64,000 nt of DNA from Haloarchaeobius amylolyticus (GCF_026616195.1 NZ_JANHDH010000001.1:62001-126000); one strand, 5' to 3'; positions 13,793 to 28,605 are shown, counted from the stretch's first letter. Numbers and translations are program-made. The notes: generated by a model not told the origin, from the letters alone.

Positions 13793-14374
13793 ATGTCAAC
13801 GGACCTGCCCGACGAGTTGCTGGATATCGACGTCGAGAACCCCGAGGAGGGGGAGGACGAACCCGAAACGGAGATTCAAAGCGACCGGTCGCCCGATGAC
13901 GAGGACGAGGAGATCGAACGGTTCGTCGTGTTCCGCCTCGGCGAGCACCGGTTCGCCATCAGCGTCGACGCCGTCAAGAGCATCGTGAAGGTCAAGGAGT
14001 GGACCCGCGTCCCCCGGACCTCGCCGGCCATCGACGGCATCATGGACCTGCGCGGTGAGATCACCGCGGTCATCGAACCCCGCGTCCACTTCCACGTCGA
14101 GGAGGAACCGGCCGACCTGAACCGCCAGCGCATCATCGTCTTCGACCGTGCCGCCGACAAGCAGGGTGTCGGCATCCGTGTCGACGACGTGGAGGGGGTC
14201 GACCTGATTCCGCTCCGGTCCATCGTCCCCAGCGAGCACGCCGAGGACGAGACCGGCGACCACCCGCTCGTGACCGCGGTCATCTACCGGGAAGACGATG
14301 GTCAGGTCGTCGACACGATGGGGTTGCTCGACATCAAAGGACTCATCCAGGCGTCCGGGCAAGCAGCCGAGTGA
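13793..14374 (+). CDS. cheW: Chemotaxis adaptor protein CheW
   Basis: A 193-residue adaptor linking transducers to CheA. The first ~40 residues are an acidic disordered leader (IDVENPEEGEDEPETEIQ). The CheW domain runs from about 43 to 188: RFVVFRLGEHRFAISVDAVK, VPRTSPAIDGIMDLRGEITA, IIVFDRAADKQGVGIRVDDV and IKGLIQ. The NLRG signature appears here as MDLRG, with the conserved Arg present. It is the first gene of the chemotaxis block and is separated from cheY by 127 bp, so it may be transcribed on its own. CheA in this block also carries its own CheW-like C-terminal domain. Confidence 0.94.
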   Translation: MSTDLPDELLDIDVENPEEGEDEPETEIQSDRSPDDEDEEIERFVVFRLGEHRFAISVDAVKSIVKVKEWTRVPRTSPAIDGIMDLRGEITAVIEPRVHFHVEEEPADLNRQRIIVFDRAADKQGVGIRVDDVEGVDLIPLRSIVPSEHAEDETGDHPLVTAVIYREDDGQVVDTMGLLDIKGLIQASGQAAE

Positions 14375-14501: not shown

Positions 14502-14864
14502 ATGTCGACAGGGGTGCTCATCGTGGACGACTCTCATTTTATGCGGAACCTCCTCAGGCAGATTCTGGAGGACGAGTACGAGATCGTAGGAGAGGCGTCC
14601 AACGGGGCCGAAGCGGTCAAACTGTACAAAGAAGAGAACCCGGACATCGTGATGATGGACATCGTGATGCCGAAGTGTAATGGAATCAAGGCGACAGCTG
14701 CCATCAAGAAGCTCGACCCGAGTTCACGTGTCATCATGTGCACATCGGTTGGCCAGCGCGAGAAGATGAAGCTCGCGGTCAAAGCCGGTGCGGATGGCTA
14801 CGTGACCAAACCGTTCGAGGAACCCAGCGTCCGCAAAGCGCTGAAAGACGTCGTCCCTGCATGA
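14502..14864 (+). CDS. cheY: Chemotaxis response regulator CheY
   Basis: A 120-residue single-domain receiver. Acidic pocket residues D9 and D10 are in VLIVDDSHFM, phosphoacceptor D53 in VMMDIVMPKCNG, the switch Thr/Ser at 81-82 in MCTSVGQ, and the invariant K103 in GYVTKPF. In haloarchaea CheY-P signals to the archaellum motor through CheF and the ArlCDE complex, none of which is in this window. The stop codon overlaps the cheB ATG (ATGA at 14861-14864), giving translational coupling. Confidence 0.96.
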   Translation: MSTGVLIVDDSHFMRNLLRQILEDEYEIVGEASNGAEAVKLYKEENPDIVMMDIVMPKCNGIKATAAIKKLDPSSRVIMCTSVGQREKMKLAVKAGADGYVTKPFEEPSVRKALKDVVPA

Positions 14865-15961
14865 CGAGCGTGCTGGTTGTCGACGATTCGCAGTTCATGC
14901 GGACGGTCATCGGCAACATCCTCGCCGACGACGGGTACGAGGTCTACAGCGCCAGCAACGGCAAGAAGGCAGTCGAAGCGGTCGCCGAACACGACCCCGA
15001 TATCGTCACGATGGACGTCCAGATGCCCGGCATGAACGGCATCGACGCCGTCACCGAGATCATGGCGACGAACCCCACCCCCATCCTGATGCTCAGCGCA
15101 CACACGAGCAAGGGGGCCGACGAGACGTTCGAAGCCCTGGACCGGGGCGCGGTGGACTTCCTCGCCAAACCGAGCGGCGAGGTCTCACCGAACATCGCCA
15201 GCCTGGCGGACAGGCTGGTCGAGAAGGTCCAGGCCGTCGCCAGCGTCGACGCGTCGTCGATGAAGTCGCGTTCGAAGGCGCGGGCGGCAGCCGGCGGCGG
15301 CCAGACCGGGGACCGCACCGGAACGGACGAATCGAGCGACGGAGCGACGACCAGCCGGTCGTACGTCAAGCACCCGACCGTCGTCATCGGCGCGTCCACG
15401 GGCGGCCCGAAGGTCGTCGAGCAGATCGTGACGAACCTGCCGGTCGCACTCGGCGCGAAGGTACTGGTCGTCCAGCACATGCCGGCCTCGTTCACCGACC
15501 GCCTCGCCGCCCGCCTCGACAGGCTGTCGAACTACGACGTCCACGAGGCGACCGACGGGCTCCGCCTGCGCGACGGCGACATCGCCATCGCGCGCGGGGA
15601 CTACCACATGGAGGTGGTCTCGAACGTGGCCGGGAACGTCCGCGTCCGGCTCACCCAGGACGAGCGCCGCCACGGCGTCCGCCCCGCCATCGACGTGACC
15701 ATGGAGACGGCGGCCGAGCGCGTCTCGGACCCGCTCTGTGGCGTCACGCTCACCGGCATGGGCAAGGACGGCGCGGCCGGCATGGTCGCCATCAAGGAGG
15801 CCGGCGGCGCGACCATCGCGCAGGACGAAGCATCGAGCCCCGTCTTCGGTATCCCGCAGAAGGCTATCGAGACCGGGTGTGTCGACCAGGTGCTCTCGGC
15901 GACCGACATCCCCGAGGGCATCTGTTCGGTCTTCACGCAGGAGGCACAGAGCCATGGATGA
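14861..15961 (+). CDS. cheB: Chemotaxis response regulator/protein-glutamate methylesterase CheB
   Basis: 366 residues from the ATG at 14861. An N-terminal receiver (D8, D9, phosphoacceptor D52) is joined by a Gly/Ser/Thr-rich linker (about 130-165) to the methylesterase domain. The catalytic triad is S179 in GASTGGPK, H206 in VVQHMPASFTDRLA, and D303 in LTGMGKDGAAGM. It demethylates transducer glutamates and can deamidate glutamines, so it acts on the nearby transducer with CheR as opposing enzyme. The gene overlaps cheY by 4 bp and cheA by 8 bp. A longer open frame exists upstream but would overlap cheY; the coupled ATG is preferred. Confidence 0.95.
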   Translation: MTSVLVVDDSQFMRTVIGNILADDGYEVYSASNGKKAVEAVAEHDPDIVTMDVQMPGMNGIDAVTEIMATNPTPILMLSAHTSKGADETFEALDRGAVDFLAKPSGEVSPNIASLADRLVEKVQAVASVDASSMKSRSKARAAAGGGQTGDRTGTDESSDGATTSRSYVKHPTVVIGASTGGPKVVEQIVTNLPVALGAKVLVVQHMPASFTDRLAARLDRLSNYDVHEATDGLRLRDGDIAIARGDYHMEVVSNVAGNVRVRLTQDERRHGVRPAIDVTMETAAERVSDPLCGVTLTGMGKDGAAGMVAIKEAGGATIAQDEASSPVFGIPQKAIETGCVDQVLSATDIPEGICSVFTQEAQSHG

Positions 15962-18900
15962 GTACCTCAGGGACTTCGTGCAGGAGTCCGAAGAGAACAT
16001 CACGGAGCTGAACAACGCGCTCCTCGAACTCGAGCGCGACCCCGACGACGACGAGGCGATGGGCCGCATCTTCCGGATGGCCCACACCCTCAAGGGCAAC
16101 GCGGGTGCGATGGGGTTCGAGGAAGCATCGAACCTCGCACACGCCATCGAGGACCTCCTCGAGGCGGTGCGCTCCGGGGAGGTCGACGTCACGCCGGAAC
16201 TGATGGACGAGGTCTTCGCGGGCGTCGACGAGCTGGAGACGATGCTCGACGACCTCCGGACCTACGGCGAGATCCGCACCGACGCCTCGGACACCATCGA
16301 GCGCCTCCGCGAGGTCAAGGAGGCCGAGACGGGCGTCCCGACCATCACGGACCCGGACGGCCCGGCCCTCGACGAGGCCGTCGAGGCCGCCGGCGAACTC
16401 ACCGACGAGTCCCACGACGTCTACCACGTCCGCCTCGCCATCGAGGAGAACGAGGAGCGCCAGAACGGCCGGCTGGTCGTGAAGGCGCTCGCGGACGCGT
16501 TCGACCTCCTCGGGACGGTCCCGGACGAGGACGCCCTCGCCTCGGGCGACTACGACGGCACCGTCGACGCGGTGTTCGGCAGCGCCGTCGGCGAGGCGGC
16601 CATCTCCGCTGCACTCGACCCTGTCGACGCGGTCGCGGACGACCGCATCACGGAGGTGACCGACCGCTACGAGGACGCCAACGTCGAACAGACCGTCGTC
16701 GAGGACGAGTTCGACGACCTCTTCGAGGAGGACCCCGGCGCGGACATCGACGCCGAGACCGCACAGGACATGTCCGTCGACGACCTCCTCTCGGAGTTCG
16801 ACGAGTACGACGACCTCGACGCGATGGTCGAGGAGATGGACGACGTCTCCGGGTTCGACGACCTCGGCGACGCCGGCTCCTTCGACGACATCGACTTCGG
16901 TGACGAACTCGAGGAGGGGCCCGCAGGCACGGGCGAACCCGCCGCCGAGGCCGACCTCGGGTTCGACGAGGCCGACTCGGACGAGGGCGAACCCGCCGCC
17001 GATTCCGAACCGGAACCGGCACCCGCCGAGGACCCCGACGAGGAGGTCGACGACGCGGCGGCGACCTTCGCGGAACTCAAACAGGAGGTCGACCCCGTCG
17101 GCTTCGACGAACTCCAGGACGAACTCGCCGAACTCGAGTTCGACGAGTACTCCGACGAGGAGGAGGTCGGCTTCGACGAACTCCTCGGCGACGACTTCGA
17201 GGAGCGAGACGACGACTTCTTCGCCCAGGGCGAGTCCGCCGTCAGCAGTGGCCAGGACGAGGTCACGATGGACGAACTCGTCGGCGACGACGTCGCCGGG
17301 TTCGAGGACGCGGACGAACCGACCGCCGAGGAGTCCGACGACCTCGACTTCGGTGACGGCTTCGCCGACGACGGCGAGTCGGCACTGGCCGACGCGGACT
17401 CCGGCCTCGACGTCGACGAGGCGTTCGACACCGGCGACGAACCGGCCGACGCTGTGGAGACGGACCCGGCCGATGCTGATACGGCCGACCCCATCGAGGC
17501 GGACCCGGCAGCGGCCGACGCGGCCGACGCCGAGTCTGCCGACGCAGCGGCCGAGGCCGACGAGGCGGACATCGGGTTCGAAGATGCTGACGAGCCGACC
17601 GACACCGGGTTCGAGGACGCCGACGAGGCGGACGACTTCGGCGAGGTCGCCGAGTTCGACGAACCCGAGGAGTCGGCCACCGCCGAGTTCGGCGACGACC
17701 TCGCCGACGAGGAACCGGTCGAACTCACGGAGGCCGACGACGCCGTCGAGACCGAGGCAGCCGCGGCGGCCGAGGAATCCACCGACGAGGACGACCTCGA
17801 CCTCGAGGCGGCCGACGAGACTCCCGCACCCGAGGAAGTCGATGAAATCGACCTCGACGAGCCCGACGACGCGGACGTCTCCGACGAGAGTCCCCCGGCG
17901 GACACCGTCGAGGCCGAGGCACCCATCGAGGCCGACGAGCCGGCCGGGCCGGAAGCGGCCGACGACTCGGACGACTTCGGGGCCGGGAGCTTCGACGAGC
18001 CGACCGGGTTCGACGCCGACTCGACCGAGGGCGATGCCTTCGGCGACGACCTCGGCGACGACTTCGAACTCGACGCGGCGGACCCGTCCGAGACGGCCGC
18101 CGCGGCCGCCGACGCGAGCATCACGGACGGCGAGTCCGACGATGCCGCGGCGGCAGACGCCGACATCGAGTCCGCAGAACAGGCCGAGGCAGCGTCGCTC
18201 GAAGACGTCGACGCGGCCGACGCGGACGGCGAGTCCGCCGACGCCGCCGGCGATGACGAGGAACTCACGCCACTGGAGCGGGCCCGCGCTCGCTCCGACC
18301 CGGACCTCGACGACGTCGAGGTCGGCGAGTTCGAACTCGACGAGCCGGAGGAGGCCGACACCGCGGCGGCGTCGGTCGACACCGGCGACTTCGGCGACGA
18401 CCTCGGGGACGGCGACTTCGATGCCGGCCCCGACACCGCGGCCGACGCCAGCAGTTACGGCGGCGGCTTCGACGACCCCGGCCTCGACTACGGCGACTTC
18501 GACGAACCGGAAGCGCCGTCGGCAGACGAGGGTGACGACGCCGAGACGGCCGACGCCGGCCCGACCGGCCCGGTCGTCGACGCCTCGGAGTACGAGGTCG
18601 ACATCCAGACCCTCGGCGACGAGGAGAGCGAGAGCGACACGGAGAGCGAGATACAGTCCATCCGTGTCGACGTCGAACAGGTCGACAAACTGCTCAACCT
18701 CGTCGAGGGACTGGTCACCAGCCGCGTCCGGCTCCGCCGGACCGTCGAGGAGGGCGCCGACCCCGGCGAACTCGACGACGAACTGGACGAGTTGGAGGAC
18801 CTGACGGGTGAACTCCAGGACACCGTCATGGACGTCCGACTGGTCCCGGTGAAGATGGTCGCGAACAAGCTCCCGCGCGTCGTGCGGGACATCTCCCGCG

Positions 18901-19784
18901 AACAGGACAAGCAGGTCGCCTTCGAGATGCAGGGCGAGTCGGTCGAACTCGACCGGTCCATCCTCGACCAGATCTCGGACCCGCTGGTCCACATCGTGCG
19001 CAACGCGGTCGACCACGGCATCGAATCCCCCGAGGAACGCGCAGAGCTGGACAAGCCCGACGAAGGGCACATCACCCTCAGCGTCGAGCGCGCCCGCGAC
19101 CAGGTCGTCATCGAGGTCGAAGACGACGGCCGCGGGCTCGACCCCGACCGCCTCCGCGAGGAGGCTGTCGAGGAAGGTATCCTCACGGCCGAGGAGGCCG
19201 AGGACCTCTCGGACTCGGAGGCGTTCGAACTCGTCTTCCACCCCGGGCTGTCGACGGCGTCGGAGGTCACCGACGTCTCCGGCCGCGGTGTGGGGATGGA
19301 CGTGGTCAAGAGTACCGTCAACGACCTCGACGGCTCGGTCAGCATCGAATCCGAACCGGGCGAGGGCACCACCATCCGGCTGCTGCTCCCCGTCACCGTG
19401 GCTATCGCGGACGTGCTGTTCGTGGAGTCCGGCGACGAGGAGTTCGGCGTGCCGGTGAAGGTCGTGCGCGACATCGGCCCCGCGGTCGACGTGCGCGAAG
19501 AGGACGGACAGGAGGTCATCGTCGACGGCGACGAGACGCTCCCGCTGGTCCGCCTGAACGAGGCCCTCGAGACACCGGGTACCCCGCGCAACGGCGACGG
19601 GATGTACCTGCGCATCCGCGGTGAGGTCCGCCCCATCGCGGTCCACTGCGACGAGGTCCGCGGCCAGCAAGAGGTCGTCGTGAAGCCGTTCGAGGGCGTC
19701 CTCGGCGGCATCCCCGGCCTGAGCGGGGCGACGGTGCTCGGCGAAGGTGAGGTCGTGAACATCCTGGACGTGAAGACACTATGA
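15954..19784 (+). CDS. cheA: Chemotaxis histidine kinase CheA with giant acidic linker
   Basis: 1276 residues, roughly twice the usual haloarchaeal size. The P1 (HPt) domain (1-120) has the phosphorylated H44 in RMAHTLKGNAGAMGFEEA. A P2-like domain follows at about 140-225 (DVYHVRLAIEENEERQNGRL). Residues ~245-900 are an Asp/Glu/Ala-rich low-complexity linker dotted with short aromatic motifs such as DDIDFGDE, DDFGAGSFDE and DDFFAQGES. Then come P3 (VDKLLNLVEGLVTSRVRL, about 907), P4 ATPase (N-box HIVRNAVDHGIES near 1012, VEVEDDGRGLDP, GRGVGMDVVKS) and a CheW-like P5 domain to the end. The start overlaps the cheB stop. All catalytic elements are intact; only the linker is unusual. Confidence 0.95.
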   Translation: MDEYLRDFVQESEENITELNNALLELERDPDDDEAMGRIFRMAHTLKGNAGAMGFEEASNLAHAIEDLLEAVRSGEVDVTPELMDEVFAGVDELETMLDDLRTYGEIRTDASDTIERLREVKEAETGVPTITDPDGPALDEAVEAAGELTDESHDVYHVRLAIEENEERQNGRLVVKALADAFDLLGTVPDEDALASGDYDGTVDAVFGSAVGEAAISAALDPVDAVADDRITEVTDRYEDANVEQTVVEDEFDDLFEEDPGADIDAETAQDMSVDDLLSEFDEYDDLDAMVEEMDDVSGFDDLGDAGSFDDIDFGDELEEGPAGTGEPAAEADLGFDEADSDEGEPAADSEPEPAPAEDPDEEVDDAAATFAELKQEVDPVGFDELQDELAELEFDEYSDEEEVGFDELLGDDFEERDDDFFAQGESAVSSGQDEVTMDELVGDDVAGFEDADEPTAEESDDLDFGDGFADDGESALADADSGLDVDEAFDTGDEPADAVETDPADADTADPIEADPAAADAADAESADAAAEADEADIGFEDADEPTDTGFEDADEADDFGEVAEFDEPEESATAEFGDDLADEEPVELTEADDAVETEAAAAAEESTDEDDLDLEAADETPAPEEVDEIDLDEPDDADVSDESPPADTVEAEAPIEADEPAGPEAADDSDDFGAGSFDEPTGFDADSTEGDAFGDDLGDDFELDAADPSETAAAAADASITDGESDDAAAADADIESAEQAEAASLEDVDAADADGESADAAGDDEELTPLERARARSDPDLDDVEVGEFELDEPEEADTAAASVDTGDFGDDLGDGDFDAGPDTAADASSYGGGFDDPGLDYGDFDEPEAPSADEGDDAETADAGPTGPVVDASEYEVDIQTLGDEESESDTESEIQSIRVDVEQVDKLLNLVEGLVTSRVRLRRTVEEGADPGELDDELDELEDLTGELQDTVMDVRLVPVKMVANKLPRVVRDISREQDKQVAFEMQGESVELDRSILDQISDPLVHIVRNAVDHGIESPEERAELDKPDEGHITLSVERARDQVVIEVEDDGRGLDPDRLREEAVEEGILTAEEAEDLSDSEAFELVFHPGLSTASEVTDVSGRGVGMDVVKSTVNDLDGSVSIESEPGEGTTIRLLLPVTVAIADVLFVESGDEEFGVPVKVVRDIGPAVDVREEDGQEVIVDGDETLPLVRLNEALETPGTPRNGDGMYLRIRGEVRPIAVHCDEVRGQQEVVVKPFEGVLGGIPGLSGATVLGEGEVVNILDVKTL

Positions 19785-19809: not shown

Positions 19810-20415
19810 ATGAGTCTGATGGTCGACATTCGGAAGTTGAGTTTCATCAACGAGATGGCGAAGGTCGGGACCAACGGGGTCGCCGACAACATGAGTAAAC
19901 TGACAGGCGAGGACGCCCGGATGGAGGTGACGAAGACGAACTTCATCGACATCCAGGACATCAAGAAGCAACTGGACGCCGGCAAGCGCGTCGGCGTCCG
20001 GGTGCGGCTGATGGAGCCCCCCCATGGGCACATCCTCATCCTGTTCCCGGAGTCGAGCGCGAAGAAGATCACCGCGCTCATGCTCTCGGACATGGTCGAC
20101 GACATGTCGCAGGTGTCGGGCGAGATGGCTCGCTCGGCCGTCGAGGAGCTCGGCAACATGATGGCGTCGGGCTTCATCGACGGCTGGGCGGACGTGCTCG
20201 GCCGCACCATCGACATCGCGACCCCGCAACTGGTGTACGCACCGGCGGGCGAGATCGTCGAACGGACCGCGGGCCTCGGCGGCGAGGACCTCGCGCTGTT
20301 CTTCGACTCCAACCTGACCGTACCGAGCTACGACATCAACGCGGAGATATACGCATTCCCGAACCTCGAAGAGTTCGTGGAGATGGTGAACAACATCGAA
20401 GCCAGGCCCACATGA
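19810..20415 (+). CDS. cheC: Chemotaxis protein CheC (CheY-P phosphatase family)
   Basis: A 201-residue CheC. The second active-site motif is intact: S-A-V-E-E-L-G-N followed 22 residues later by Pro (ARSAVEELGN, then FIDGWADVLGRTIDIATP), the S/D-x3-E-x2-N-x22-P phosphatase signature. The first, N-terminal motif is degenerate (SFINEMAK, with Lys for Asn). CheC stimulates dephosphorylation of CheY-P and partners CheD. It begins 25 bp after cheA, and its stop overlaps the next start by 4 bp. A second, fused CheC protein follows. Numbering of CheC paralogues among haloarchaea is not assigned here. Confidence 0.92.
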   Translation: MSLMVDIRKLSFINEMAKVGTNGVADNMSKLTGEDARMEVTKTNFIDIQDIKKQLDAGKRVGVRVRLMEPPHGHILILFPESSAKKITALMLSDMVDDMSQVSGEMARSAVEELGNMMASGFIDGWADVLGRTIDIATPQLVYAPAGEIVERTAGLGGEDLALFFDSNLTVPSYDINAEIYAFPNLEEFVEMVNNIEARPT

Positions 20416-21656
20416 AACTGGACATCACCGCACTCGGGACCTTCTACGACATGGCCCGGGAAGGTGCCGGTCTCGCTGCGGGTCGCCTGACGCGCATGAC
20501 CGACGTGGACACCCGCGTCGGCATCACGAAACTGAACTTCATGCGCGGCTCGGAGATCCGCACCGAGTTCGAGGACGACGTGCCCAAGGTCGGCATCCGG
20601 GTCGAACTCTCGGGCGGCCTCGAGGGGCACTCGCTGATCATCTTCGAGCGCGACGCCGCGCTCAGCATCGTCCAGACACTGGTGGGTGAATCGGACGCCG
20701 ACGGCTTCGACGACATGAACCGGTCGGCGATGACCGAGGTCGGCCAGATCATGAACGCCGGGTTCATCGACGGCTGGGCCGACGTGCTCGGTACCGTCAT
20801 CGACGTGTCCACCCCCGAGTTCGTCGAAGGGACGACGGCCGAGCCGTTCATCGGCGACCTCAAGGCGGCACCCGACGAGGGCGACCTCGCGTTGCTGTTC
20901 CAGAGCCAGATCGAGGCGGTCGACACGGAGATCGGGTTCAAGCACTACCTGTTCCCCGAACGCGACTCGATGGCCGACATCCTCGAACAGCACGGGGACC
21001 CCGACAGCCGGGGCATCGAGTACGACAAACTCGCGGGCTTCGACGAGATGGCACAGCAGGGGGCGAAGGAGGTCGCCTCGAACATCACGACGCTCACCGG
21101 TATCGAGACGAGCGTGAAGATCCGGCGGCTGAAGTTCGCCTCGCTTGAGGCCATCCCGCAGGAGATCGACGACGAGATGCTCGTCGGCGTGGCCCACGAA
21201 CTCGACGGGACACCCTCGGGCTACCTGCTGTTCCTGTTCGACGAGCGCTCGGCCCGGGAGGTCGTCGAGGCGACGGTCCCGAACCCGCCCGACGACGAGT
21301 TCGGCGACCTCGGGAAGAGCGCCATCAAGGAACTCGGCAACATCATGGCCTCCGGGTTCATCGACGGGTGGGCGAACGTGCTGGACACGACCATCGACCA
21401 CTCGCCCCCGCAGTACATCCACGACTTCGGCGCGGCGGTCATCGACCCGGTCATCATCCAGCTCGGGGAGAACCAGGACTTCGCGTTCGTCTTCGACACG
21501 GTCATCAAGGCCGACGACCGCGAGTTCGACTGCTCCATCTACGCCATCCCCGACGAGGAGGACCTCGAACGGGCGCTCAACAACCTCGACATCGACCGCA
21601 TCGAAGACGCCGAGACGAAAGCAGACTTCCCCATCGATGAAGTGGAGAACTCATGA
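20412..21656 (+). CDS. cheC: Tandem double-CheC protein
   Basis: 414 residues made of two CheC units. Unit 1 (about 1-195) has a motif with Gln in place of the catalytic Asn (SAMTEVGQIMNAG, with Pro 22 residues later). Unit 2 (about 205-400) has an intact motif (SAIKELGNIMASGFIDGWAN, followed by Pro at the right spacing). The N-terminal half-motifs of both units are degenerate, so only one complete phosphatase site is visible out of four possible. The unit boundary falls near KHYLFPERDSMADILEQ. It overlaps the upstream cheC and the downstream cheD by 4 bp. Non-catalytic units may serve in CheY-P or CheD binding. Confidence 0.9.
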   Translation: MKLDITALGTFYDMAREGAGLAAGRLTRMTDVDTRVGITKLNFMRGSEIRTEFEDDVPKVGIRVELSGGLEGHSLIIFERDAALSIVQTLVGESDADGFDDMNRSAMTEVGQIMNAGFIDGWADVLGTVIDVSTPEFVEGTTAEPFIGDLKAAPDEGDLALLFQSQIEAVDTEIGFKHYLFPERDSMADILEQHGDPDSRGIEYDKLAGFDEMAQQGAKEVASNITTLTGIETSVKIRRLKFASLEAIPQEIDDEMLVGVAHELDGTPSGYLLFLFDERSAREVVEATVPNPPDDEFGDLGKSAIKELGNIMASGFIDGWANVLDTTIDHSPPQYIHDFGAAVIDPVIIQLGENQDFAFVFDTVIKADDREFDCSIYAIPDEEDLERALNNLDIDRIEDAETKADFPIDEVENS

Positions 21657-22174
21657 AGACCTACGGCAGTGAACCCGGCGCGCCGGAGCCGGTCCAGGTC
21701 GGCATCTCGGAGTTCGTCGTCCGGGGAAAGGAGTCAGAGGAGACGCTGAAGTCCTACGGGCTCGGGTCGTGCCTGGCCATCGCGCTGTACGACCCCGACT
21801 CCGGTATCGGCGGGCTGGCCCACGTCATGCTCCCCGACGGCGACGCAGCCGACGGTGCCGACACCCAGCCGGGCAAGTACGCCGACACCGCCATCCGCGC
21901 GATGCTCCGCCGGATGGTCGAGAAGGGCGCGGCGTACACCTCGGTCGAGGCCAAGATCGCGGGCGGCAGCGACATGTTCCAGTTCGAGTCCTTCGGCGAG
22001 GGCGTCGGGAAGCGAAACGTCGCCGCCGCAAAGGACGAACTGGAGAAGCTCGGCGTCCCCATCATCGCAGAGGACGTGGGCGGCCAGCGTGGCCGGACCG
22101 TCGAGTTCGACGTGGAGACCGGCACGCTCCGCATCCGCACCGCGGACAGCGAACACGCTGTGGAGGAACTGTGA
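21653..22174 (+). CDS. cheD: Chemoreceptor glutamine deamidase CheD
   Basis: A 173-residue CheD. The catalytic Cys40 is in GLGSCLAIALYDPDSGIGG and His57 in LAHVMLP; their 17-residue spacing matches that of characterised CheD. The C-terminal half has AKIAGGSDMFQF and AEDVGGQRGRTVEFDVETG, both typical. It deamidates glutamines of transducers and binds CheC, which competes with receptors. The start overlaps the preceding gene by 4 bp, and the stop overlaps the GTG of cheR. The target nearby is presumably the large transducer encoded on the other strand. Confidence 0.95.
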   Translation: MKTYGSEPGAPEPVQVGISEFVVRGKESEETLKSYGLGSCLAIALYDPDSGIGGLAHVMLPDGDAADGADTQPGKYADTAIRAMLRRMVEKGAAYTSVEAKIAGGSDMFQFESFGEGVGKRNVAAAKDELEKLGVPIIAEDVGGQRGRTVEFDVETGTLRIRTADSEHAVEEL

Positions 22175-22974
22175 CGGAGGAGGACGCGTTTCTCCGAGTC
22201 ACCCAGTACGTCGAAGACGAGATCGGGTTCGCGACCAGTCATTACAACGACAGCTACCTCAAGCGGCGGCTCTCCTCGCGCATGCGCCGGACGGGCGCGG
22301 CCGACTACGACGAGTACTTCGACATCCTCCGCGAGGACCCCGACGAACCCAAGGAGCTGCTGGACGCGCTCTCGATCAACGTCACCGGGTTCTTCCGGAA
22401 CCCCGACGTCTGGGAGGGCATCCGGTCGGTGTTGCGGGACCTCTCCGCCGAAGAGGACCGCGTCCACGTCTGGTCTGCGGCCTGTGCGGACGGCCGTGAG
22501 CCCTACTCGCTCGCGATGCTCGCGCTCGACGACCCCCGGGTCGACGCCGAGAAGTTCCACATCTACGGGACCGACATCAACGACGAGGCGCTCCGGACCG
22601 CCCAGCAGGGCGTCTACCACAGCACCCGCACCGTCGACATCGAGGACCAGCTCACCTTCCTCTCGAACTTCCACGCCTACGTCGACAGGCGAGAGAACCG
22701 CTTCGCGGTGACCGACCGGGTCAAACGGAAGGTCACCTTCGCGAAGCACGACCTGATCAACGACGGGTCGAAGTCGGGCTTCGACCTCGTCATCTGCCGG
22801 AACCTGTTCATCTACATCGACAACGAGTACAAACAGCCGGTCCTCGAGACCATCGCCAGGTCGCTCCGCCCCGACGGCTACCTCGTCATCGGGAAGGCAG
22901 AGACCATCCCGCCACAGCTCAAGTCGGCGTTCTCCGTGCTCGACGGTCGCCTCCGTATCTACCAGCGCGAGTAG
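22171..22974 (+). CDS. cheR: Chemotaxis protein methyltransferase CheR
   Basis: 267 residues from GTG at 22171, chosen because it overlaps the cheD stop as GTGA and yields a full-length CheR. The N-terminal helical domain is followed by TGFFRNPDVWEGIRS, the SAM-binding segment VWSAACADGREPYSLAM, IYGTDINDEALRTA, and FDLVICRNLFIYID near the C-terminus. It methylates glutamates of transducers. It has no visible TPR extension. It closes the operon; a 119-bp spacer without an obvious hairpin separates it from the convergent transducer gene. Confidence 0.95.
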   Translation: MTEEDAFLRVTQYVEDEIGFATSHYNDSYLKRRLSSRMRRTGAADYDEYFDILREDPDEPKELLDALSINVTGFFRNPDVWEGIRSVLRDLSAEEDRVHVWSAACADGREPYSLAMLALDDPRVDAEKFHIYGTDINDEALRTAQQGVYHSTRTVDIEDQLTFLSNFHAYVDRRENRFAVTDRVKRKVTFAKHDLINDGSKSGFDLVICRNLFIYIDNEYKQPVLETIARSLRPDGYLVIGKAETIPPQLKSAFSVLDGRLRIYQRE

Positions 22975-23093: not shown

Positions 23094-26000
23094 TTACTCG
23101 TCGTCGTTCGGCTCGGACTGGGCGAACGAGAACATGTCGTCCTCGCTGCCATCCTCCTCGTCGACGTCCAGGTCCTCCTCGTCGGACTCGTCACCGAAGT
23201 CGATGTCGTCCATCCCGGGGACCTCCTTCGTCTCGGTCTCCTCGGGGCCGTCGTCGGTGGTCTCCGCGAGCGGGTCGTCGTCGAAGTCGAGCGCCTCGCC
23301 GAGCTCGCGGTCGATGTCGTCGGTATCCCGGTCGGCCTCGTCCTCGGTCTCCGCTTCGGCGTCGGCCCCGAAGGAGAGTCCCGTCGTCGACTCCGAGTCG
23401 TCCTCGGCAACCGAGTCGGCCTCGGGAGCCGAGCCGGCCTCGGTGTCGGCCGCGTCCATGGGCTCGGCTTCGATGGACTCCGCCTCGGCCTCGGGTTCGG
23501 CGGCGTCGGCTTCGACGGCGTCGGCTTCGACGGCGTCGGCTTCGACGGCGTCGGCTTCGACGGCGTCGGCTTCGACGGCGTCGTCGCTGTCGACAGCCGC
23601 GTCCGTGTCTGCGGGGTCGGCCTCGACGGCCGTGTCGTCGGTCTCCCAGCCGGGCGGTGCCTCGTCGGTCTCCCAGCTGGCGTCTGCGGGTTCGGTGGCG
23701 GCCCACTCGTCGTCGGCCCCGTACTGGGGCTCGGCGTCCGCGTCGGCGGTTTCGCCGACCTCCCAGTCGGCCTCGGCCGTCTCGTCCGCGGCGAACTCGT
23801 CGTCCGCAGCCCACGAGCCTTCGGCGTCGGCGTCCTCACCGGCTTCCCAGTCTGCGGACTCCGACGCCGCTGCCGCGTCGACCGTCTCCCACTCGTCGCT
23901 GGACTCGTCCGGTTCCATGCCGGCAGCGTCGGATTCGGCGCCGGCGTCGGCGTCGAGGTCGGTCTCTCCCTCGTCGTCGGTACTCGGCTCGGTGTCGACC
24001 CCGGCTTCCGTCTCGGTCTGGGTCTCGGCGTCGGCCGCGTCGACCTCGGCCTCGTCACCTGCCGGCTCGGTCTCCTCGCCGCCCTCGAACGGTTCGAAGC
24101 CCTCGAACTCGTCGTCAGCGTCGGAGCCGAGGTCGATGTCTGCCTCGTAGTCGCCGGGGTCCGCGGAGTCGGCGAGCGGGTCGGCTTCGGCGCCAGATTC
24201 CGCCGCGGCCTCGGCTTCGACCGGCTCGTCGTCGGCGGTCGAATCCGGGTCCTCGACCGCGTCCGCGTCGAGTTCGAGGCCGTCGTCGGCCTCGACCGGT
24301 TCGTCGGTCTCGGTCGCCGTCTCCGCCTCGTCGGGTTCCTCTTCGCCGAAGGCGATGCCGGGCGAGTCGGTGTCCTCGGGTGCGACGGCGTCCGTCGACT
24401 CCGTCTGTGCGTCGGTTTCAGCCTCTGCGTCGACCGCACCGGCCTCCGCTTCGACAGCGTCACCCTCGATTTCGACGTCGGCGGGCTCCGGTGCGGGTTC
24501 TGCACCGAAGGAGTCCGCGGCGGAGTCGTCCTCGGCTGCTGCCCCGGCAGTCGCCGCGGCGTCGAGGTCGTAGTCGTCCGCGTTCACGTCGTCCACGTCG
24601 TCGAGGCCGAGTTCGTCCTCGTCGGATTCTTCACCGAAGCTCGCGTCGTCGACCGGCGCGAAGTCGTCGGCGGCGCCGTCGCCGGCGTCGGGGCTCGGCG
24701 TGGTCTCCTCGCCGAAGGTCGCCGGCGAGCCCAGCCCGCCCTGACCCTCGGCTGGCGCGTCCATCGGCGCTTCCGTCTCCTGCTCCTCGGCCGGTGCCGG
24801 GTCCGCGTCGCCGAGGTCGAGGTCGCTGTCGCCGGCGGTCAGTTCGCCGACGGCTTCGGTCGCTGCCTCGATCTCTTCGGGGTCGCGGGTCTCCACGTCC
24901 TCGAAGAGTTCCTCGCTGGTGCCGAACTCGTACACGTCGTCGACGTCGGTCTCGAAGCGGTCCAGCGCCTCGCTGAGGCGGGACGCCTGGTTCGCGAGGT
25001 CGCTCGCGGACTTGCTGACCTCGGTGAGTGCCGTGGTCTGCTCCTCGGCGGCGGCCGCCACGTTCTCGGCCTCCGCGGTCGTCTCCTCGGAGATGGTCGC
25101 TGCCTCGTCGACCATCGCGACGACCTCCTCGGTCGAGGCCGCCTGTTCCTCGGTCGCCGCGGAGATCTCCTGGACACCCGTGTTGGTCGACGTCGCGTAG
25201 TCGGCAATCTCGTCGAGTGCCGTGACGGTCTCCTCGACCGCCTCGGTCGTCGCGGATATCTGTTCGCTCGCGCCCTCGACGGAGCGCACGGACTGCTGGG
25301 TCTTCGACTGGATGGTCTCGAGGCGCTTCTCGATGTCCTCGGCCGCGTCCTTGGTCTCCTCTGCCAGCTCCTTGACCTCCTGTGCGACGACGGAGAACCC
25401 TTCGCCGGAACTGCCCGAGCGTGCCGCCTCGATGTTGGCGTTCAGCGCGAGCATGTTCGTCTGCTCGGCGATCTCTGAGATGAAGTCGATGAGTTCGTCG
25501 ATCTGCTCCATCTCCTTCTCGAGGTCGCCCATCTGGTCGGTGACGACCTCGCGGTTGTCCTCCAGTGCCTGCATCCGGTCGATCGCCTCCTGTGCGGCCT
25601 CGCGACCGTCGCGGCCGGTCTCTGCGGTCCGTTCTGCCAGGTCCGCCACCTCGTTCGAGGACGACGCGATCTCCTCGATGGTGGTCGACAGGCCGGACAT
25701 CTCCTGACTGACGCGCTGGAGGCTGTCGTTCTGCCGGTCCGCACCGTCGGAGATCTCCTGGATGGACTCGGTCACCTGCTCGGAGGCGGACCGGACCTCC
25801 TCGCTGGAGGCCGTGACCTCCTCGGAGGAGGTGGCGACCTCGTTCGCGAAGTTCTTGAGCTGGGCCGTGGTCTCCTCGATCTCGCCGATCATGTGGTTGA
25901 ACTCCCGGGCGATGTCGGCCATCGCCTCGGACTCGGATTCGGCGTTCATCCGCTGGGTCATGTCCCCGTCGGAGACGCTCTGCATCACGTCGCGGTACTC

Positions 26001-27227
26001 GTCGGCCTTGCGCTCTAGGTGGCGGTTCATCTGCTCCGCCTCGGCGCGAGCGAGTTCCGCCTGCTCGCGAGCGTCACGGGCCTCCTGGATCTGCTCACGG
26101 AGCGCGTCACGCATGGACCCGAACCCGTCGTACAGCCGCCCGATGTTGTCGATGCGGTGGGTCTCGAACTCGACGTTGAGGTTCCCCTCCTCCATCTGGG
26201 TGGTCTTCGAGGTGAGGCGGTCGATGGCGGACGCGGTGTTGCGCCCGATGACCGTCCCGACGAGGACGATGAGGGTCATCCCCGCGAGGGTCGCGTACAG
26301 GCCCCACTGGCTCACGTCGTTCACGAAGCCGTAGACGTTGCCGGTCGGGGCGCTCACGGTGACGACCATGTTCCGACCCGGCACCGCCGCGTAGCTGGTC
26401 ACGTACTCGTCGTCGCCGTAGTCACCGCCGACCGTCTGTGCCACCGGCTCCGGTGCCGACCCGAACTGCTCGACGCCGGTCCCGGACTGCGAGAGCTGAT
26501 AGAAGTTGGCGCCGGTGAACTGGTTGCCGACGACGGTGCCGTCCTCCATGTTCCCGGTGTTCGCGAAGACGATCTCGTTCTGGTCACCGAGAATCATCGT
26601 CGTCTCACCGTCCTCGACGGCCATGGTCTGTGCGTAGTTGGCCACGTCGACGGTGGTCACGATGACCTCGCTCCCACTGCTCGCCTTCACGGGGTAGGCG
26701 TAGGCGACGACGGTCGTCCCCTCGTGGTCGACGTAGGAGCTGTAGATGATACCACTATCGCCGTCGACGGTCGTCTTCTCGGCGAGGGTCGACGCCCACG
26801 GCGTCTGCAACTGGCCGAGTTTGGCGTCCTCCTGGTCGTTGTGCGTGGTCGCGGTGACGGTGTTGGAGGGGAGCTTCACGTAGTACATGTCCCGGACGCC
26901 ACGTTCGAACTGCAACACCTGCGTCCGCCCCTCCAGAGTGGCGTCGATACGCGTCTCGTTGCCGTTCTCTACCTCCTCCCGTAACGCGATGTTCTGTGTG
27001 ATGACGATGTTCCGTTCGTCCCACTGGCGCAAGTTACGGGCTTCCTGTCCTGCACGGTCCTCGAGTCTGTCGTTGACGCTGTTCTCGACCTCCTCTGTGA
27101 TCTGGCCAGTCGCGACGAACCCCACCGCCCCGACAGCCAGGCCCATTATGAGGAGCGCGATACCGAATTTCAGCGCATAACTTCTCCGAATAAAGTTTGG
27201 TATGAGTCGACGAAGCGGGCCCAGCAT
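23094..27227 (-). CDS. Methyl-accepting transducer (dCache-type) with ~610-residue acidic tail
   Basis: 1377 residues from ATG at 27227, supported by a TATA box 29 bp upstream. TM1 is at about 17-38, an extracellular dCache-like sensor at about 40-300, TM2 (WGLYATLAGMTLIVLVGTVI) near 306-326, and two HAMP segments follow. A long methyl-accepting coiled coil has its hairpin tip at about 586-605 (IAEQTNMLALNANIEAARSG). The normal transducer ends near residue 766. The rest is an Ala/Asp/Glu low-complexity tail with FGE/FGD motifs, a VEADA tandem repeat and the terminal DDMFSFAQSEPNDDE. Most haloarchaeal transducers are under about 850 residues. It converges on the che operon and shares motifs with the CheA linker. 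Confidence 0.92.
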   Translation of the reverse strand: MLGPLRRLIPNFIRRSYALKFGIALLIMGLAVGAVGFVATGQITEEVENSVNDRLEDRAGQEARNLRQWDERNIVITQNIALREEVENGNETRIDATLEGRTQVLQFERGVRDMYYVKLPSNTVTATTHNDQEDAKLGQLQTPWASTLAEKTTVDGDSGIIYSSYVDHEGTTVVAYAYPVKASSGSEVIVTTVDVANYAQTMAVEDGETTMILGDQNEIVFANTGNMEDGTVVGNQFTGANFYQLSQSGTGVEQFGSAPEPVAQTVGGDYGDDEYVTSYAAVPGRNMVVTVSAPTGNVYGFVNDVSQWGLYATLAGMTLIVLVGTVIGRNTASAIDRLTSKTTQMEEGNLNVEFETHRIDNIGRLYDGFGSMRDALREQIQEARDAREQAELARAEAEQMNRHLERKADEYRDVMQSVSDGDMTQRMNAESESEAMADIAREFNHMIGEIEETTAQLKNFANEVATSSEEVTASSEEVRSASEQVTESIQEISDGADRQNDSLQRVSQEMSGLSTTIEEIASSSNEVADLAERTAETGRDGREAAQEAIDRMQALEDNREVVTDQMGDLEKEMEQIDELIDFISEIAEQTNMLALNANIEAARSGSSGEGFSVVAQEVKELAEETKDAAEDIEKRLETIQSKTQQSVRSVEGASEQISATTEAVEETVTALDEIADYATSTNTGVQEISAATEEQAASTEEVVAMVDEAATISEETTAEAENVAAAAEEQTTALTEVSKSASDLANQASRLSEALDRFETDVDDVYEFGTSEELFEDVETRDPEEIEAATEAVGELTAGDSDLDLGDADPAPAEEQETEAPMDAPAEGQGGLGSPATFGEETTPSPDAGDGAADDFAPVDDASFGEESDEDELGLDDVDDVNADDYDLDAAATAGAAAEDDSAADSFGAEPAPEPADVEIEGDAVEAEAGAVDAEAETDAQTESTDAVAPEDTDSPGIAFGEEEPDEAETATETDEPVEADDGLELDADAVEDPDSTADDEPVEAEAAAESGAEADPLADSADPGDYEADIDLGSDADDEFEGFEPFEGGEETEPAGDEAEVDAADAETQTETEAGVDTEPSTDDEGETDLDADAGAESDAAGMEPDESSDEWETVDAAAASESADWEAGEDADAEGSWAADDEFAADETAEADWEVGETADADAEPQYGADDEWAATEPADASWETDEAPPGWETDDTAVEADPADTDAAVDSDDAVEADAVEADAVEADAVEADAVEADAAEPEAEAESIEAEPMDAADTEAGSAPEADSVAEDDSESTTGLSFGADAEAETEDEADRDTDDIDRELGEALDFDDDPLAETTDDGPEETETKEVPGMDDIDFGDESDEEDLDVDEEDGSEDDMFSFAQSEPNDDE
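23502..23576 (-). repeat. Five perfect 15-bp tandem repeats inside the transducer gene
   Basis: The unit GGCGTCGGCTTCGAC is repeated five times without mismatch (75 bp). On the coding strand it encodes repeated V-E-A-D-A in the acidic tail. Being an in-frame multiple of three, copy changes would alter tail length without a frameshift. Perfect identity suggests recent expansion or slippage. Confidence 0.9.
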
Positions 27228-27408: not shown

Positions 27409-28605
27409 GTGACGATGGGACCCGCGGACCTGACGGAGTACGTCGAACACGCCACGGAGGTCGTCGCTACCTCGCCGGAGCTAGGCCTGCGGAACACCCA
27501 GCTCAGGCTCGTCGAACCGTTCCTCGAGGCCCTCGGCTGGAACGTCAGGGCCCCCGAGGTCGAGGCCGCGTTCCACGTCCCCGGTGCCGAGGCCACCGTG
27601 GACTACGCGCTCCTCGCGGACGGCAGACCGACCGTGTTCGTCTTCACGCGCCCGGCCGAGGAATCGCTCGGCACAGACGACACCGACCAGCTCTCCGAGG
27701 CCATGCGAGCAGCCGGGGTATCGTGGGGCGTGCTCACGAACGGTCGGCAGTTCGCCTTCGCCGGCTCGAAGGACGGGGAGACGGAGTGGGCAGAGTGCGA
27801 CCTGCAGGGACTACCGGAGCGGTCGACGGTCCTCGAACACTACACGCGAGCGCGGGCCATCGAGCGAGCACGCACCCGTACCCGGGCCGAGCGCGAGACT
27901 GCCGCAGAACGTCTCGAAGACGCGGGCGACGAACTGGTCGAGGCGCTCACCACGGAGTTGCAGGCGGCGACCGACGGGGCTGCCGCTGCCGACCTCGAGA
28001 CCGCGACACGCGAGTTCGTGCAGCGACTGGTCCAGTCGTTCCGGTCGGATGACGGCACAGGGAGTCGTCCGACCGGGACTCCGCGAGACGGCACAGAAGC
28101 GGGTCCAGCCGGTGTCTCCGACGCTGCGGAAGTCGAGGCAGAAACAGAGGACACCGAGACCTCGGTCGAGCCCGCACAGGAGTCGGTCGACGACGCTGCC
28201 TCGGCCTCCGACAGACAGGACGGTGTCCAGACGGTCGCGGCCGCCTCGGCCGGCGGGGACGGCGAGTTCGTCGCCCGGTTCTTCAGGGACCGGACCTCCG
28301 TCGGAGCGGTCGGTTGCTCCACGGTCGAAGGGGCGATGGGGCAGATCGTCGACTACCTCGTCGAACAGCACCACCTCGCCGGGTCCATCTCCCTCCCGTA
28401 CTGTCCCGACGAGGACGAGACCGCCGTCCTCCACCGGGAGCCCGTCCATCCCGATGGACGACCGATGCGACCGGCTGTCGAACTGGAGAGCGGACCGTTC
28501 CTCTGGACGGGTGGCGACCTCGAGACCCAGCGGGCACGACTGGAGGACCTCGCCTCGCGGGCGGGACTCCGGGTGATGTTCCAGGGCGACTGGCGCACGA
28601 GATAG
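27409..28605 (+). CDS. HsdR-N-like (type I restriction R-subunit N-terminal-like) protein, nuclease residues unclear
   Basis: A 398-residue acidic protein from GTG at 27409; an ATG lies six bases on. A TATA-like GATAAAGTA sits about 28 bp upstream. Residues ~20-130 resemble the N-terminal domain of type I restriction R subunits: RNTQLRLVEPFLEALGWNV, VDYALLADGRPTVFVF, WGVLTNGRQFAFAGSKD. The PD-(D/E)xK core is incomplete: D is present in VDYAL, but the E/Q-x-K strand reads VFVFT. The middle is a coiled-coil/low-complexity stretch (ERARTRTRAERETAAERLED, then an Asp/Glu/Ser region); the C-terminal ~100 residues form a second domain (FVARFFRDRTSVGAVGCSTV). No methylase or specificity gene is near. 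Similar stand-alone proteins occur in haloarchaea, but their role is unknown to me. Confidence 0.65.
   Translation: MTMGPADLTEYVEHATEVVATSPELGLRNTQLRLVEPFLEALGWNVRAPEVEAAFHVPGAEATVDYALLADGRPTVFVFTRPAEESLGTDDTDQLSEAMRAAGVSWGVLTNGRQFAFAGSKDGETEWAECDLQGLPERSTVLEHYTRARAIERARTRTRAERETAAERLEDAGDELVEALTTELQAATDGAAAADLETATREFVQRLVQSFRSDDGTGSRPTGTPRDGTEAGPAGVSDAAEVEAETEDTETSVEPAQESVDDAASASDRQDGVQTVAAASAGGDGEFVARFFRDRTSVGAVGCSTVEGAMGQIVDYLVEQHHLAGSISLPYCPDEDETAVLHREPVHPDGRPMRPAVELESGPFLWTGGDLETQRARLEDLASRAGLRVMFQGDWRTR

Follow-up and report, generated by a model that had tools for sequence, protein, structure and literature searches.

The closest known analogue of the feature described here is the pentapeptide tether of the bacterial chemoreceptors Tar and Tsr, whose NWETF end binds CheR with an affinity of ~2 μM and CheB with one of 130–160 μM via a linker of ~30–35 residues (PMC7390727, PMC7698151, PMC10561060). 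The bacterial pentapeptide has the form xZxxZ and lies at the extreme C-terminus, and a survey found it in 0 of 2730 Halobacteriales receptors (PMC7390727). How adaptation enzymes are recruited to archaeal receptors is an unsettled question. In an interaction study of Halobacterium salinarum, Htr12 was the only receptor reported to be fished with CheR alone; as the Hbt. salinarum receptors we sampled have no tail, this result says little about the receptor considered here. We analyzed a stretch of 64,000 nucleotides from Haloarchaeobius amylolyticus (NZ_JANHDH010000001.1:62001-126000; hereafter the window), which contains a chemoreceptor gene on the minus strand (23094..27227). Its frame is open throughout from the ATG at 27227 to the TAA at 23094 and encodes 1377 residues, the last 611 of which form an acidic tail that is predicted to be disordered (residues 767–1377; 23097..24929, minus strand). 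The tail ends in a docking-like motif, DDMFSFAQSEPNDDE (residues 1363–1377; 23097..23141, minus strand).

Homologues (n = 41) from the Natrialbaceae (in the GTDB sense) and a sister family were picked by similarity to residues 1–422; given this selection a few may be paralogues, and the motif counts are numbers of sequences, not of independent events. Their tails range from 24 to 653 residues, with a median of 262, and are mostly unalignable. An F-x-F starting 6–17 residues from the C-terminus is present in 36 of the 41 homologues, nearly always once per tail. Its context is usually D-[MV]-F-[ST]-F-[AGV], followed by few, mostly acidic residues, as in the window receptor and in the ends DDVFTFGNTDE, DEVFSFGTPEDDQ and EDVFTFGEDR of other homologues; two of the exceptions end in the near-variant ETFSLD. 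The regular expression F[STEAVQ]F, devised once the sequences were known, matches within the last 35 residues of 37 of the 41 tails, against 0.44 expected when each tail is shuffled. The first 20 homologues, all of the same family, were read before the motif was seen, and 20 more, from other genera and the sister family, were then fetched. Because this second set was collected after the motif had been noticed it is the fairer test, and 17 of its 20 tails match (e.g., DDMFSFVQDEPNED).

Conservation across genera is confined to the terminal D-[MV]-F-x-F, the internal FG motifs being a genus-level feature, and the window tail is an extreme case, near the long end, of a conserved device consisting of a variable tether with a short linear motif at its end. 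In a preliminary description of this DNA, made from the window alone, the tail figured as an isolated curiosity and its aromatic motifs as equal; neither view fits a receptor group with a median tail of 262 residues and a shared end motif. The literature searched, which does not cover most subscription journals, yielded no account of the tail or its motif.

An orthologue of the receptor is present in 6/6 sampled genomes of the genus, and in each the hairpin is followed in the same frame by 316–653 residues of acidic tail. The genus is inferred to be Haloarchaeobius, since in two of its genomes the tails of paralogues are identical to those in named Haloarchaeobius records. The last 15 residues are nearly invariant within the genus, and most of the remaining tail is gapped in the alignment. 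By the Nei-Gojobori method, the window gene and its nearest orthologue have a ratio of non-synonymous to synonymous substitution rates (dN/dS) of 0.05 in the HAMP and signalling region and 0.23 in the sensor; the ratio is 0.33 in the tail and 0.15 in its last 47 residues. The tail value indicates purifying selection on the tail frame. Together with the in-frame tails and the near-identical 15 C-terminal residues in all six genomes, it excludes a sequencing error, frameshift or run-on, and the preliminary description was right that the extension is no run-on artefact.

D, A and E make up 59% of the 611-residue tail (20%, 20% and 19%, respectively), which has just four K or R residues and a net charge of −237, matching the Ala/Asp/Glu low-complexity tail of ~610 residues first described. 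The disorder proposed for it is likewise supported. A charge-hydropathy analysis places the tail far to the disordered side, and AlphaFold2 (AF2) modeling with the genus alignment gives a mean predicted local distance difference test score (pLDDT) of 46, with values below 50 in 482 of 617 residues. Three short helices are predicted, two directly past the hairpin and one at residues 1299–1312. A Pfam search with the tail alone returned no domain match. The dipeptide FG occurs seven times in the window tail against 1.1 expected, a number reached in 0/500 shuffles. The motifs FGEE, FGAD, FGDE and FSFAQ are present as had been reported, except that FSFAQ is not at the very end, seven residues following it.

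Several islands can be distinguished within the tail, all on the minus strand. In an alignment of six orthologues, GLGSPATFGEE (residues 831–841; 24705..24737) has the genus form GLG-x-PATF and GIAFGEEEP (957–965; 24333..24359) the form [GD]I[AE]FG-x-x-EP. Also conserved in the genus are DDIDRELGEALDF (1303–1315; 23283..23321), which overlaps the predicted short helix at 1299–1312, and ETKEVPGMDDIDFGDES (1332–1348; 23184..23234). The islands kept across the genus read GLG-PATF, FG-x-x-EP, IDR-LDEAL-F and KEVPG-DIDFG; they might act as additional weak sites or have a regulatory role. In the comparison with orthologues and homologues, the majority of the internal FG and W motifs are lineage-specific. 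LSFGADAEA (1284–1292; 23352..23378) and a Trp block, WETV/WEAG/WEVG/WETD/WETD (1113–1197; 23637..23891), are limited to the window species and its nearest relative (G005). The Trp motifs are therefore not the conserved element, and we rejected WETV and WETD as copies of NWETF. A tandem 15-bp repeat encoding (AVEAD)n (23486..23583) is a recent expansion that is absent from the nearest orthologue, and exemplifies how such tails can grow.

The receptors sampled do not support an end motif universal to haloarchaea. Among 40 other membrane-size receptors of the family the median tail is 49 residues and F-x-F occurs in the last 40 residues in 9/40, and among 20 receptors from other families (median tail 23) it lies near the end in 2/20. 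Paralogues in the window genome and genus have the same kind of end (EEFVFAEP, DDSFEFGDH, DVEFEFGD) on tethers of 36–56 residues, close in length to the E. coli linker of roughly 35 residues (PMC7390727). In a degenerate DNA scan of the six genus genomes for [DE]-[MVI]-F-x-F-[AG], this receptor alone gave a match at a C-terminus preceded by an acidic stretch; paralogues with other residues fall outside the pattern. The Htr transducers of Hbt. salinarum have in common with the window receptor a HAMP and signalling architecture, the archaeal class and Che proteins. They differ in their short ends: those sampled stop within ~30 residues of the hairpin, and the motif was not found in them, so that this model organism may be without the device. 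The statement that haloarchaeal transducers typically end soon after the coiled coil is accurate for the Halobacterium and Haloarcula receptors sampled, but not for the present group.

Other kinds of receptor end were also seen. Two receptors of another family (f3; L106, L108) have a different tandem tail motif, [DE]EFRPDD / DTFRSDD / SFQPDD, in several copies before the C-terminus. Other receptors of family f1 (L320–L322, L329, L330 and L334, among others) have shorter tails with a recurrent C-terminal D-[IL]-V-L-[KRG]-[HY]-D or V-L-E-Y-D-E, which may represent another docking motif. Four receptors from further haloarchaeal families (L118, L119, L120, L122) have aromatic-acidic-aromatic ends of yet another kind, GFEWQGEQ, GFDWEQ, GFEWVEED and NGFEWTEGDR.

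A constant end preceded by a disordered spacer that varies is the hallmark of tethered docking peptides. We tentatively read the tail as a flexible tether with a putative docking peptide for an adaptation enzyme at its end. The motif D-[MV]-F-[ST]-F-[AGV] would bind a soluble chemotaxis protein and hold this partner near the receptor cluster. The partner would most likely be an adaptation enzyme: CheR first, whose gene adjoins that of the receptor, and CheB or CheD next. An adaptation enzyme is the best guess on account of the analogy with NWETF and the position of the receptor gene next to cheR, both in the genus and in several others. With the NWETF tether the window tail shares a C-terminal extension past the hairpin, predicted here to be disordered and flexible by AF2 and charge-hydropathy, a short aromatic-acidic end peptide and a presence in some receptors only. 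The two differ in that the bacterial tether has xZxxZ at the very end of ~30–35 residues, whereas the window group has Phi-F-x-F 6–17 residues from the end of up to 653. The window receptor itself ends in FSFAQSEPNDDE, without xZxxZ at the extreme C-terminus. Scaling for denatured chains gives a root-mean-square end-to-end distance of ~22 nm for a coil of 611 residues versus 3.6 nm for one of 30; with such a reach a single receptor could serve many of its neighbours.

Several observations weigh against docking of an adaptation enzyme. The pentapeptide-contact residues of Salmonella CheR are Q182, R187, G188, G190, G194 and R197 (PMC2577667), of which the window CheR keeps 0/6. Across 40 haloarchaeal CheRs, Q182, G188 and G190 are never kept, and R187, G194 and R197 only in some. 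Among PDB entries, the nearest to the window CheR is 5ftw, which we take to be the CheR of Bacillus subtilis, and B. subtilis is described as having a pentapeptide-independent mechanism. A tether of 610 residues far exceeds what an enzyme needs to reach methylation sites. With just 9/40 and 2/20 other receptors carrying the motif, adaptation cannot generally depend on it. Because the motif spacing differs and the window CheR lacks the six contact residues, the receptor is not a member of the NWETF family, and its likeness to that tether is one of analogy, not homology. The interpretation given in the preliminary description is partly borne out: of the three roles it proposed (a spacer or concentrator of receptors, a tether for CheR/CheB/CheD and an aid to condensation), the tether still fits best with a variable spacer and a conserved terminal peptide, even though the window CheR lacks the pentapeptide-binding residues.

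Alternatively, the terminal motif could dock another partner, from the signalling core or with a positioning role (CheA, CheW, CheY, CheC, CheF, or a ParA/MinD-type or polar-cap protein), with the tail positioning the array or coupling it to the archaellum. The conservation of the motif although CheR is without the known peptide-contact residues would be accounted for in this way, and the arrays of Haloferax volcanii lie mainly near the poles (PMC6509185). Moreover, CheD of Hbt. salinarum contacts CheC, CheB and CheF (PMC3579733), so that adaptation and motor proteins are intertwined. We regard another partner as unlikely, none of these proteins being specifically linked to the receptor gene and genome adjacency favouring cheR.

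It is also conceivable that the long tail is a near-neutral low-complexity expansion, tolerated as acidic chains are soluble in molar salt, and that only the last few residues matter. The acidic composition, as would be expected of a halophile with a salt-in strategy, counts for this explanation, as do the absence of the 15-bp tandem array from the nearest orthologue and the wide variation in tail length among close relatives. Neutrality fits poorly with the tail dN/dS of 0.33, the conservation of GLG-PATF, EVPG-DIDFG and IDR-LDEAL-F across the genus, and the persistence of long tails in many genera (median 262), and we think it rather improbable. Least plausible, and in our view distinctly improbable, is a stickers-and-spacers polymer, an acidic chain whose recurring aromatic motifs (Phi-x-FG, WE) would aid cluster condensation or receptor spacing, perhaps together with the ~670-residue, largely acidic linker of CheA from the same cluster: the enrichment of FG in the window tail (7 vs 1.1) and the genus-conserved islands speak for it, but most other genera show no enrichment of FG inside the tail, many relatives keep the end motif on tails of <110 residues, and the FG motifs of CheA are not conserved among its orthologues.

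The core of the receptor (dCache, HAMP and coiled-coil hairpin) would serve normal sensing and signalling. The HAMP domain (residues 327–378; 26094..26249, minus strand; PF00672, E = 1e-8) and the MCP signalling domain (match at 553–712; 25092..25571, minus strand; PF00015, E = 1.4e-40, 139.4 bits against a cut-off of 34.6) were identified by Pfam. The double-Cache (dCache) sensor (residues 47–291; 26355..27089, minus strand) was assigned by fold, as its match to dCache_1 (PF02743) is below the Pfam cut-off. An AF2 model of residues 1–330 has a mean pLDDT of 76, and its top PDB matches in Foldseek are dCache chemoreceptors, with E-values down to 1e-11. The Pfam domains and this model thus bear out the dCache-HAMP-signalling architecture given in the preliminary description. 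The sensor fold is shared with the amino-acid chemoreceptors PctA, Mlp24 and McpB, at ~14% identity. The bacterial relatives retrieved are, unlike the window receptor, without a long tail.

The receptor gene closes a che cluster that, on the plus strand, comprises cheW (13793–14374), cheY (14502–14864), cheB (14861–15961; PF01339, PF00072), cheA (15954–19784; 1276 residues), two cheC genes (19810–21656), cheD (21653–22174; PF03975) and cheR (about 22171–22974; PF01739, E = 1.4e-46); CheB, CheD and CheR are the candidate partners. It converges on cheR across a gap of 119 bp. This convergence is found in 6/6 genus genomes and in L070, L072, L073 and L076 and, judged by coordinates, in several genomes of family f5. 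The divergent neighbour (27409–28605, plus strand) matches the type I restriction domain HSDR_N_2 weakly, with a score under the cut-off.

CheA contains ~670 residues, largely acidic, between a weak P2 match (156–229) and the dimerisation domain (901). Conserved islands of CheA, among them DMSVDDLLSEFDEYDDLDAMVEE and GFDELQDELAELEFDEYSDEEEVGFDELLGDD, are found again in orthologues from several genera and could be sites of docking. The FG motifs of CheA are not kept in the orthologues compared, and we rejected an FG motif and partner common to the CheA linker and the receptor tail. CheR of families f1, f5 and f6 (the window and L238–L267 compared) has FATSHYN[DN]SYL as its N-terminal and GKAET[ILV]P as its C-terminal signature; both differ from the CheR of the remaining families sampled, Halobacterium salinarum and a Haloarcula genome among them. 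A β-subdomain of CheR co-varying with the presence of the motif was considered and rejected: the clade-specific residues follow phylogeny and single out no surface.

What is noteworthy in this receptor is the conserved, docking-like terminal motif on a tether of freely evolving length. A more far-reaching possibility, which we hold to be doubtful, is a haloarchaeal docking system independent of the bacterial pentapeptide, in which a D-[MV]-F-x-F-[AGV] end peptide would engage a new site on a Che protein, on tethers of up to 650 residues with lineage-specific docking islands, and one receptor would recruit enzymes and distribute them cluster-wide. The motif is conserved in many genera of two families, yet none of the Hbt. 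salinarum receptors sampled has it, and this may be the reason that it has gone unnoticed. Tethers of 46 to 653 residues with the same end would provide a natural series for how tether length sets enzyme sharing.

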